The notes below the pieces were generated by a model. It ran no database searches. It was given only the letters and a program-made list of their open reading frames with translations, and was not told the origin of the DNA. Shown one piece after another: positions 46,414 through 50,123 of a stretch of 64,000 bases of DNA. How positions within the stretch are numbered: position 1 is the first letter of the stretch; each line of letters opens with the position of its first letter. The stretch is taken from contig NC_008347.1 in NCBI RefSeq assembly GCF_000014745.1, forward strand, positions 2,744,001 through 2,808,000, written 5' to 3'. The translations under genes were made by a program, and so were the position numbers. The DNA comes from Maricaulis maris MCS10. Lineage in GTDB: Bacteria > Pseudomonadota > Alphaproteobacteria > Caulobacterales > Maricaulaceae.

Positions 46414-46494
46414 TCAAACTCTTTGGGCACTGTGTGGCCCAAGCCTTGCTACGATTCGCCCATCAATCGTGACCGACGTACAAATGGACCCGCA

Positions 46495-47022
46495 ATGACC
46501 GATAGTCAGACACCGACCCTCTTCCCTGCCGGCGGCGCGCCAGCCGCCCGGGCCCAGGACTTCGCCGCTTCGGAAATGTTCCAGAAGCTGTTTCGCGAAG
46601 GCATGGACATGGTGGAAGAGACGGCCAGCTATCTGGACGGGCCGGGTCGCGATGATTCCAAGTCTCTGGATCGCGCCGGGGCGCTGTCCTACGCGACCGA
46701 GAGCATGAAGCTGACTACCCGCCTGATGCAGGCTGCCTCCTGGCTGCTGGCCCAGCGGGCCGTCGCCGAAGGCGAGATGTCTGCCGAGGCGGCAACGGAT
46801 GGGAAATACCGGCTCACCGCAGACCGTCCGGATGAAAACCTGTGGCCGGACGGCGAAACCCCGCCAGCCGTGCTGGGTGACCTCGTGCGTCGGTCGCGCT
46901 CGCTCTATGCCCGCCTCAAGCGCATTGACGACAATCTCTATGTCGACGGGGTGATCGAAGCGGAAGCCAATCCGGTCGCCGACCAGATGGCCATGCTGCG
47001 CGGCGCCTTCGGCCAGCGCTAG
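46495..47022 (+). CDS. DUF1465 protein
   Basis: 175 residues from the ATG at 46495 (the longer frame from 46423 lacks a ribosome site). All-helical; SEMFQKLFREGMDMVEETASYLDG and TTRLMQAASWLLAQRAVAEGEM are characteristic of DUF1465, followed by LVRRSRSLYARLKRIDDNL. Alphaproteobacterial, function unknown to me. Its stop overlaps the converging XRE regulator by 4 bases. Confidence 0.88.
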   Translation: MTDSQTPTLFPAGGAPAARAQDFAASEMFQKLFREGMDMVEETASYLDGPGRDDSKSLDRAGALSYATESMKLTTRLMQAASWLLAQRAVAEGEMSAEAATDGKYRLTADRPDENLWPDGETPPAVLGDLVRRSRSLYARLKRIDDNLYVDGVIEAEANPVADQMAMLRGAFGQR

Positions 47023-47639
47023 CCTAGGTCTTTCAGGCTGAACAGCTTGTCACGAACGATTTTCAGCGATGAAGTGTGTTCAGACGGATCCTGGTCTGTC
47101 GGGGTCGGGATGCGGACTTCCAACCGCACGATTACTTCACTGTGCGGGACCCGAAAACTCGTCAAGCTGAGCTCGACCGGTCTGATCTTCCCATGGCGGT
47201 GAAGCAGCGTGACGCCCGAGGCGGATTCAACGCGCCCCTCGAACAGTCCCGCTTCAACCAGACGGCCGAGCTGAGCATCCACGTCGGGGCCGAACAGGCC
47301 ATGGATAGGTTTACCGACATCGTCATGGCCCAGGAATTCGGTCAGCTCTGCTGCACTGTCGCTGATCAGATCAAACACCACACCTTCGTCGCGATCGACA
47401 AGCAGCCCGGCGACATTCGGACTGGTGCGTACACTCACCCGCAATGCCTCGATAAAACGTGCGGCCGGCGTCTTCGCGAGCCTCTTGAGGAGCTTTGACT
47501 GTATGTTCGGTGGCGGCTCAGAAACGCCGCGCTCCCACTGACTGACACTGGCTTGGCTAACGCCGAGCTGCAGGGCCAGGGCATCCTGCTTGATATCTTC
47601 GAAGTGCCGCAGTTCCTTGATTTTGTTGACCCAACTCAT
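47019..47639 (-). CDS. XRE helix-turn-helix regulator with PAS-like sensor domain
   Basis: 206 residues from the ATG ending at 47639 (a TTG three bases upstream also possible). An XRE DNA-binding domain occupies residues about 5-60 (DALALQLGVSQASVSQWERG). After a linker, residues about 72-185 resemble a PAS domain (LLVDRDEGVVFDLI, FGPDVDAQL, and strands ending VIVRLEVRIP). It may bind a cofactor or ligand and repress neighbouring genes. It lies 89 bases after the BLUF gene on the same strand; the gap is AT-rich and may hold its own promoter. Confidence 0.8.
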   Translation of the reverse strand: MSWVNKIKELRHFEDIKQDALALQLGVSQASVSQWERGVSEPPPNIQSKLLKRLAKTPAARFIEALRVSVRTSPNVAGLLVDRDEGVVFDLISDSAAELTEFLGHDDVGKPIHGLFGPDVDAQLGRLVEAGLFEGRVESASGVTLLHRHGKIRPVELSLTSFRVPHSEVIVRLEVRIPTPTDQDPSEHTSSLKIVRDKLFSLKDLG

Positions 47640-47728
47640 CAATAATATTCTTACTTAAATTATGGCCTCTGCGATACTTTCTGCCCGTCGGATACCACGA
47701 ACTCCAGCGTTATTTTACTATATTTCCC

Positions 47729-48154
47729 TCATACGGGCTGCAATACATCGCCGGATCGCATCGCGCTGCATATTTGTTCCAGAAAGCCCGCACTGGTGAC
47801 AACTTCCGGTGATCGAAACCAGGGCTGCCAGCGGATATCTCCCGGCAGTCGGCGGACATAAACCTGCCAGGTATCGAACCGCCGCTCATCGATCTCAGCC
47901 ATCCCAGCCAGCACCAGATCACAGTGACGTGGATCACTGGCAATGCGCAAAAAGGTCTCGGTAATCCGCGCTCGAGGGCCCTCGAGTACCTGAATGAACA
48001 TGTCATCGTCGACGACCAGAACGCCTGTGATGCCGCGCGCCGGATTATTGCGCCGGCCAGCCGCGAGAATATCCTCCAGCACTCTCCTGGCTGCCGGATC
48101 CGCCCCGACCTTCCAGGCCCGGCGACTGAAGAAAGTCAAACGGGATAACAGCAT
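47729..48154 (-). CDS. BLUF-domain flavoprotein with Tyr8 replaced by Phe
   Basis: 141 residues, a single BLUF domain and short helical C terminus like PixD (Slr1694). Flavin-pocket residues are kept: Asn37 in RRNNPARGITGV, Gln55 in FIQVLEG, the DPRH segment (74-77) and Trp96 in FDTWQVY. However, the first strand reads LSRLTFFS: the position of the photoactive Tyr (Tyr8 in PixD, Tyr21 in AppA) is Phe8. In studied BLUF proteins this change abolishes the light reaction. The start codon overlaps the stop of the globin-coupled chemoreceptor gene, so the two are one unit. Likely binds FAD; light sensing is doubtful. Confidence 0.87.
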   Translation of the reverse strand: MLLSRLTFFSRRAWKVGADPAARRVLEDILAAGRRNNPARGITGVLVVDDDMFIQVLEGPRARITETFLRIASDPRHCDLVLAGMAEIDERRFDTWQVYVRRLPGDIRWQPWFRSPEVVTSAGFLEQICSAMRSGDVLQPV

Positions 48155-49512
48155 CAGTCAGCTGCGCCCGACCGGGTCGCAGCCAGAAAGCCATCGACCT
48201 GTTCTCGCAAGCGCGTCACGTCGCGCCGGACGGCACTGGCCTCGGAAGTGACGTCCGATGAGACTTCCGAGCACTGGCGCACGCTGATTTCAAGGCGGGC
48301 GGTAGCATCTACCCCGGCACTATTGCCCTTGGTCGCCTCATTGGCGCTGCGGACGATCTCACGGATTGCGCTTGATTGTTCCTCGATCGTCGCATTGATG
48401 CTGACTGACGCTTCGTCAACCGCTCTTATGGTATCCCGCATGCCCGAAATGGCATCACCCGCCGTCCGGGCGCCGTCCTGAACCGCGCTGATCTGCTGGC
48501 TTATACGTTCGGTAGCCTTTGCAGTCTGGTGCGCGAGGGATTTCACCTCGCCGGCCACGACCGCGAACCCGGCACCGGCCTCACCCGCGCGAGCGGCTTC
48601 AATAGTTGCATTGAGCGCGAGGAGATTCGTCTGCTCCGCGATCTCCTGGATCAGCCCCACAATTGTTCCGATTTCCCGGGCAGCCTCGGAAAGGTTCTCC
48701 ATGTCGGCGCTGGCCACACCGACCTGGTCAACAGCCGAGCGGGCCCGCAGGCTTGTCTGATTCACTTGGCCCGATATCTCATCGACCGCGCCGCGCATCT
48801 GCTCGGCCGCAGCCACGACCGTCTGCACATTCTTCAAGGCCGAATCGGCCTCCCTTGCTGTCAGTGTCGCATCTTCCAGTGTGTGATCGACCGATTCAGC
48901 TACGTTGCCAGAGACGACGTCAAGTCGGTCCGATGTCCCTTCAAGATTCTCGAGAATTTCGGCAACACTCGCTTCCAGCCCGTCAGCGATTTCTTGCCTC
49001 GCCTTGCTGGCCCGGATATCGCCCGCTTCCAGATAGGTCGACAGGGCAAGCTCCATGTCCAGGAAGACCGCTCTAATGAGCGCATCGACCTTGGCTGCCG
49101 TGGCCTCAAACTGCTTGGTTCGTGATACCCGGTTCCGTTGGCCGGACTGGATCACGCCTCGCACCAGGGAGGAGGCGATACCGGCATAGCCGGCCACATA
49201 ATAGCGAGGCTCCAGACCAATCTCGAAATGGACCTCGCCAATGCGCCGCACATTATCGAAGTATGCGGTGTCATATTCGCCCGACAGGATGCGCTGCCAG
49301 TGCTTGATCTGGTGTCGCTTCGCATGCGCGCGGTGGTCATCATTGCGAAACAACACATCCACTTCCGGAGCCCGGGACAGGGTGTTGTAGAATACTTCCA
49401 GCGCCTCTTCGAGAACCGGAGGCAACTCGGCCTGCATGGAGCGCAAGCTCTCGCGCGTGACCTCACCAACGCCAAATTCTTGCAGGCGACCGTCCATTGC
49501 TTTGCTAGCCAA
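48154..49512 (-). CDS. Globin-coupled soluble chemoreceptor (HemAT-like)
   Basis: 452 residues from a TTG ending at 49512, which has AAGGGG at good distance; the ATG at 49497 lacks a ribosome site. Residues about 15-170 form a globin-coupled sensor domain with [14 protein letters not shown] and the proximal haem His95 in [17 protein letters not shown]. No membrane helix. The C-terminal signalling hairpin (about 230-430) is a complete MCP domain with tip [21 protein letters not shown]. It should sense O2 (or NO/CO) through haem and signal to a CheA kinase, controlling taxis. No che genes are in the window. Followed without gap by the BLUF gene. Confidence 0.92.
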
Positions 49513-49673
49513 CGCCTATCCCCTTAAGTGAATTTGGAAAGAGATTGTGCCGCGTTAGTTAACGATATCTGAAAATCTCTAAAAACTTGGGTGAAAACAG
49601 AGGCTTATAATATTATAGTAGTAAGATTTCCTACAGATTATCTATTTGACGGCCGGGCCTGCAGGCACAAAAA

Positions 49674-49699
49674 AGCGCGGCACCCGAAGGTACCGCGCT
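49674..49699 (-). terminator. Terminator after rpmE
   Basis: AGCGCGG (49674-49680) and CCGCGCT (49693-49699), extended by ACC/GGT, with an A run before it on the plus strand that becomes a T run for the minus-strand transcript. Confidence 0.8.
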
Positions 49700-49739
49700 C
49701 TCTGTTTGTTTAGCTCCGAAGAGCCCGTCATTGTCAGGC

Positions 49740-49958
49740 TTACGCGAAGCCCTTGAACTTGTCCTTGAAACGCGAAACGCGGCCGCCACGGTCCAGCAGG
49801 TGCTGGTTGCCGCCGGTCCAGGCCGGGTGCGACGTCGGATCGATGTCGAGATTGATCGTATCGCCTTCCTTGCCCCAGGTGGATTTGGTCTGGAAGGTGG
49901 TCCCGTTGGTCATCACGACATTGATGACGTGATAATCGGGATGAAGGTCCTTTTTCAT
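49740..49958 (-). CDS. rpmE: 50S ribosomal protein L31
   Basis: 72 residues from the ATG ending at 49958: [19 protein letters not shown], then [25 protein letters not shown] in parts and the C-terminal [10 protein letters not shown]. This is the alphaproteobacterial L31 without the zinc-binding Cys. It bridges the ribosomal subunits. Single gene with its own terminator. Confidence 0.95.
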
Positions 49959-50123
49959 CGGTCCGGCTCTCTCTTGTCCGCCGCGCCACGGGATTACGTT
50001 GCCCCGCACGCAGCTTATAAACTCAGGAGCGGGGCTAGTACCCGATGATCACCGCCAAGGCAAGCGGGCTCTGGAGTCACGCGCCCGACTCACAATTCGT
50101 GACTTGGGGATGATACCTGGGTG

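Follow-up and report, generated by a model that had tools for sequence, protein, structure and literature searches.

A Maricaulaceae gene cassette of globin chemoreceptor, BLUF protein and XRE-PAS regulator, with loss of the photoactive tyrosine in Maricaulis maris

Three adjacent genes of Maricaulis maris MCS10, encoding a globin-coupled chemoreceptor, a short BLUF protein and an XRE-type regulator with a PAS fold, form a cassette that recurs in several genera of the family Maricaulaceae, and the BLUF protein of this cassette carries a Phe in the place of the photoactive Tyr. The change of Tyr8 to Phe is a new point, absent from the sequence-only reading that was followed up here. The cassette may be understood as an O2 receptor combined with a BLUF protein, light-blind in this lineage, that serves as anti-regulator of its XRE-PAS neighbour, an interpretation that is put forward tentatively and to which we give somewhat less than an even chance. 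The genes (Table 1) lie in a stretch of 64,000 nucleotides that was analysed as a whole (the window), and the genome to which it belongs is a single contig of 3,368,780 bases, labelled G000 in the comparisons.

Table 1 Cassette genes, junctions and flanks in the window
Feature	Position	Strand	Details and basis
Globin-coupled MCP (HemAT type, soluble)	48154..49512	(-)	452 aa; Pfam + PDB match
Short BLUF protein, Phe at photoactive-Tyr position (residue 8)	47729..48154	(-)	141 aa; Pfam, alignments, model
XRE-type HTH regulator, C-terminal PAS fold	47019..47639	(-)	Pfam HTH_3 + PAS; model
TGATG, MCP stop/BLUF start with one base in common	48152..48156	(-)	Sequence
BLUF-XRE gap, 89 bases	47640..47728	(-)	Alignment of five genomes
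MCP upstream region, rpmE to cassette	49513..49739	(-)	Sequence, alignment
Left flank: DUF1465 gene	46423..47022	(+)	Convergent with XRE; the two stop codons overlap in CTAG
Right flank: rpmE (ribosomal protein L31)	49740..50009	(-)	Pfam 2e-24

Proteins and junctions of the cassette

The receptor is a globin-coupled sensor, in which a protoglobin domain (PF11563, 1e-30, 107 bits against a cut-off of 25) is fused to an MCP signalling domain (MCPsignal PF00015, 3e-30, 106 bits, cut-off 34.6). In the alignment, three relatives have an ATG at the position of its TTG start codon. In the match to the HemAT structure 1or4 in the PDB (4e-6), His95 aligns as the proximal His, and this residue and Tyr42 are kept in 16 of 16 cassette receptors; haem binding by the receptor is supported at the level of sequence. 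The protein resembles HemAT and other globin-coupled chemoreceptors in that an N-terminal protoglobin carrying the proximal His is joined to an MCP signalling domain, but differs from them in being encoded together with BLUF and XRE-PAS genes. Judging from the family and the conserved haem-pocket residues, the soluble haem-globin receptor would bind O2 and steer swimming via CheA, and receptor arrays are plausible since the genome contains eight MCP-type matches, the cassette receptor included.

For the XRE regulator, an ATG start was adopted, one codon after the TTG given by the ORF list. The HTH_3 domain (1e-7, 31.9 bits against a cut-off of 23) was matched in all 33 relatives; the PAS match (PF00989) reaches 23.3 bits, barely above the cut-off of 22.6, and a Pfam PAS-type match is found in few of the same 33 proteins (PAS in one, PAS_9 in two). 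The AlphaFold2 model (pLDDT 94.1) has a PAS fold at residues ~58-184, for which VIA-align returned mostly PAS/LOV/PYP-type chains with Z up to 11.0 (4hnb, 117 residues aligned, rmsd 2.9), and Foldseek agrees with PAS-type folds for this model. Over the PAS part, the XRE alignment showed no conserved Cys or His. An XRE regulator with a PAS-like domain, which the sequence-only reading had placed after the BLUF gene on the same strand, is thus recovered by profile and by fold.

Proteins of the XRE-PAS type occur in 53 of the 398 genomes of the order, and 38 of these 53 belong to Maricaulaceae. As far as the accessible part of the source describes them, the Caulobacter XRE regulators RtrA, RtrB and CdxA provide a parallel, in that XRE regulators have radiated in relatives of Maricaulis (PMC10688885). 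Four XRE-PAS paralogues, three of them in tandem, are clustered elsewhere in the M. maris genome (L121:5049-9102, 420057-424095) next to an M28 peptidase and an MFS gene, and a similar array is present in several Maricaulis genomes. RtrA, RtrB and CdxA are presumably short and without a PAS domain, unlike the XRE-PAS protein of the window.

The one-base overlap of the chemoreceptor and BLUF genes in a TGATG junction, pointed out by the sequence-only reading, is present in the sequence, and the same overlap is found in G062 and G065. No terminator-like site was found in the gap between the BLUF and XRE genes. Just upstream of XRE, the alignment contains a weakly and partly conserved block, a possible promoter or operator of its own, because of which the XRE gene may be transcribed on its own. 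The region upstream of the MCP gene holds the terminator-like hairpin of rpmE and an AT-rich stretch that is conserved in part. A promoter scan yielded three matches against 1.1 expected, which is near chance. An operator shared by the regions upstream of MCP and XRE was also considered; comparison by eye gave an AT-rich likeness only, and the candidate was rejected as evidence.

Conservation in the family and respiratory neighbours

Each cassette protein was searched against 137 Maricaulaceae genomes and neighbouring matches were then counted, with expected numbers that assume genomes of 3 Mb and random placement. The rows typed for these counts were at least 150 for BLUF, at least 150 for XRE, 70 for the MCP (the 24 weakest listed being left out) and 48 of 52 for cydA, and the counts that involve XRE cover the genomes other than G066, whose XRE was found in the order-wide search. 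Among the matches listed, a BLUF and a globin MCP lie within 3 kb of each other in 13 of the 30 genomes that have both (13 pairs against 0.27 expected), a BLUF and an XRE in 20 of 40 (23 pairs against 0.53) and an MCP and an XRE in 14 of 29 (17 pairs against 0.32). With neighbour pairs this far above chance, the proposal of one sensory group is borne out as a genomic unit, and the check that had been suggested for it, conservation in related genomes, shows order or membership kept across several genera of one family and not in a single strain. The conservation of neighbours may in part reflect shared descent, not function.

Gene-order maps were drawn for 23 loci. The order MCP-BLUF-XRE of the window is found in G062, G065 and G075, and in G067 the cassette is split between two contigs, one ending with BLUF-XRE and the other with the MCP gene. 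The order XRE-MCP-BLUF is found in G066, G080, G092, G091, G097, G089 and G008, MCP-BLUF with a convergent XRE in G083 and G096, and XRE-MCP at the first locus of G081 and in G095 (at a contig end). As XRE may lie upstream of the MCP gene or convergent to BLUF, a single three-gene operon is not a fixed rule. In G084, a 79-codon globin piece (L114:6917-7156) is all that lies between XRE and BLUF and represents a decayed receptor. At 72 loci outside Maricaulaceae, chosen for BLUF proteins with one peptide pattern and in part on short contigs, neither an XRE-PAS protein nor a globin MCP of the cassette type was found near BLUF.

In sister genera, a typical map reads DUF924, acyl-CoA synthetase (divergent), XRE, XRE, MCP, BLUF, cydB, cydA (convergent), cydD and cydC; the XRE gene faces the acyl-CoA synthetase gene, not cyd, and the cytochrome bd genes are usually close by. 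Of the 23 genomes that have both cydA and the XRE type among the matches listed, 11 have them no more than 8 kb apart (13 pairs against 0.32 expected); for cydA and BLUF at the same distance the count is 7 of 37 genomes (7 pairs against 0.41). The oxygen or redox theme proposed for the group is in keeping with the globin receptor and with the cytochrome bd genes that adjoin the cassette in these genera. The cyd link may nevertheless be mere neighbourhood, because cydA has no match in the M. maris genome and the cyd genes lie outside the divergent promoter region of XRE, which is shared with the synthetase; a homologue of the synthetase, 57% identical, is encoded elsewhere in the M. maris genome. 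Nor is cytochrome bd a universal neighbour of XRE-PAS proteins, since relatives outside the family often face a TonB receptor gene. Four XRE-PAS locus maps outside Maricaulaceae were scanned for neighbour domains and contain a TonB receptor in three cases and an MFS transporter in one. At L272, L274 and L275, which belong to other families of the order, the one XRE-PAS relative present faces the gene of a TonB-dependent receptor; for the receptors of L272 and L275 the nearest NCBIfam models, with scores under the cut-off, are those of the vitamin B12 and haem types.

A BLUF protein without the photoactive tyrosine

The second protein of the cassette matches the BLUF family profile (PF04940, 1e-24, 86.6 bits against a cut-off of 25), and its model (pLDDT 88.7) has the BLUF fold, aligning with Slr1694/PixD (2hfo) at Z 18.2 over 125 residues (rmsd 2.3) and with the 'pseudo-Signaling State' structure of PixD Y8F (3mzi) at Z 17.1. 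Both PixD and the window protein are short, stand-alone BLUF folds, but the column of the photoactive Tyr8 of PixD is occupied by Phe in the window protein, a substitution that was engineered in 3mzi and 8i98 and that removes a residue of the canonical photocycle. Across 80 wider BLUF loci, the photoactive Tyr is present in 78 (with one gap and one His), the flavin-bonding Gln in 79 and the flavin-bonding Asn in all 80; the window protein keeps the latter two as Gln55 and Asn37.

Within the Maricaulaceae sample (71 rows, with the window protein entered twice as L001 and L003), Phe8 together with the Gln is found only in G000, G066 and G069, in each case in a cassette BLUF with the gene intact, while the cassette relatives G062, G065, G067 and G075 carry Tyr at this position. 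In the tree, G000 joins the Tyr8 relatives G062, G065 and G067 in one group (support 94/95), separately from G066 and G069, the branching order of which is not settled. More than one origin of Phe8, or a return to Tyr, is therefore probable on these sequences; with Phe8 in three separate Maricaulis branches, its origin may have been repeated. The genome also encodes a second BLUF-type protein (L122:7681-8139, about 2452812-2453099) without Tyr, Asn and Gln (RMVLAAR...FLEVLEG), and eight other Maricaulis genomes encode similar triad-less proteins; together they form a degenerate BLUF family within the genus.

In the accessible parts of the literature, the same Tyr-to-Phe change is reported to lock PixD in the lit signalling state, the AppA variant Y21F/Y56F/W64F is described as photoinactive, retaining its flavin and resembling the light-adapted state (PMC7005313), and Trp-flavin electron transfer is still seen in YnF mutants (PMC10799861). 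Since the window BLUF is without the photoactive Tyr, a normal blue-light response appears unlikely from the alignment and from what these sources describe (PMC5899715; PMC7005313). Its description as a 'light/flavin sensor' is doubtful, and it probably signals without light. The Phe8 protein would still bind flavin but would not go through the photocycle typical of BLUF proteins, and the analogy with PixD Y8F suggests that it may sit in a lit-like state. It is conceivable, although on balance we doubt it, that the analogy extends to a natural lit-locked BLUF, in which a Tyr-to-Phe change fixed in a Maricaulis lineage would have left the XRE-PAS regulator and the O2 chemoreceptor with a flavin partner that is permanently 'on' in place of a light sensor.

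Partner of the BLUF protein and alternative explanations

In the proposed mechanism, the XRE-PAS protein would be a local one-component regulator, as suggested by its DNA-binding and PAS folds, and the small BLUF, translated with the receptor, would act on a partner protein, most likely on the neighbouring XRE-PAS as an anti-regulator, in the way BluF acts on BluR. In that case O2/redox and gene dosage, rather than light, would determine the output of the cassette. The XRE protein is favoured as the partner by six loci in which BLUF and XRE are present without an intact MCP (G069, G013, G009, G010, G136 and the second locus of G081), because of which the two may be the tighter pair. These loci speak against the alternative that the BLUF acts on the chemoreceptor, binding to the receptor array and biasing swimming, with the XRE as only a neighbour; this alternative is favoured by the TGATG coupling in G000, G062 and G065, by the adjacency of MCP and BLUF in 13 genomes (among the matches listed) and by the known control of motility by BLUF proteins, as described for PixD-PixE phototaxis in the accessible part of PMC5899715, and we regard it as possible but doubtful.

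The anti-regulator interpretation has a precedent in E. coli, where BluF directly antagonises BluR as an anti-repressor and where, as far as the accessible part of the source describes it, the genes of a BLUF protein and an HTH regulator are likewise neighbours (PMC3509220). BluF, however, carries an EAL domain, and its partner is MerR-like, whereas the putative pair of the cassette is a BLUF alone and an XRE-PAS protein, whose genes are neighbours in 20 of the 40 genomes with both (among the matches listed). In AppA-PpsR, a BLUF protein acts on a PAS-containing DNA-binding repressor; AppA has further domains and PpsR is not XRE-type, and, in contrast to that system, no photosynthesis genes are involved in the cassette. 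With HemAT, BluF-BluR and AppA-PpsR as precedents, the gene set is not wholly new. The earlier remark of knowing no described system with this set agrees with the open-access PMC literature, in the accessible parts of which neither the set nor a natural Tyr-less BLUF was found described, and is qualified by BluF-BluR as a partial precedent.

The insertion site of the cassette is relevant to a further explanation, namely that a variable site gathered sensory genes as a matter of genomic convenience, with a decaying BLUF and no joint mechanism. The junction of rpmE and DUF1465, looked at in 19 Maricaulis genomes, is variable: it holds the cassette in four (G000, G062, G065 and G067) and an Mrr-type (restriction) gene in G064, and the L31 gene adjoins DUF1465 without the cassette in G063, G066, G068, G069, G072, G073, G074, G075, G077, G078 and G079. 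In G070 and G071 an MCP match lies close to DUF1465 and L31 was not matched in that stretch, and for G076 DUF1465 is the sole match. Judged by DUF1465, the five nearest relatives (G068, G064, G078, G063 and G077, with 92-95% identity) are without the cassette at that junction. The varied cargo is joined by the low GC content of the cassette (59.0% against 63.4% in the window, among the lowest 0.8% of 2.5-kb windows) and by a raised dN/dS of the BLUF gene, which is 0.20-0.45 for pairs with G000 against 0.08-0.12 among Tyr8 relatives, with dS near saturation, so that decay of the BLUF also fits. However, the same partners are found together far more often than chance predicts, also away from this junction and in other genera, the Asn and Gln of the flavin pocket are kept alongside Phe8, and the gene is intact in three Phe8 lineages, which makes this explanation unlikely. 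That the BLUF is a flavin redox sensor or an unliganded binding module, and not lit-locked, would suit the loss of Tyr from a pocket that is otherwise kept, as well as the oxygen/redox neighbours, and is considered highly improbable.

Under the preferred reading, of an O2 receptor encoded with a BLUF anti-regulator of the XRE-PAS protein, the cassette ties aerotaxis genes to a regulator that lies near high-affinity oxidase genes in sister genera. Tyr-less BLUF mutants are laboratory tools for the lit state, and here the same change is natural. If the BLUF were indeed lit-locked, sensing would be carried by its neighbours. A Phe8 lineage beside Tyr-keeping relatives with the same cassette would make the re-use of a photoreceptor as a constitutive signalling part, and the identity of its binding partner, open to test.
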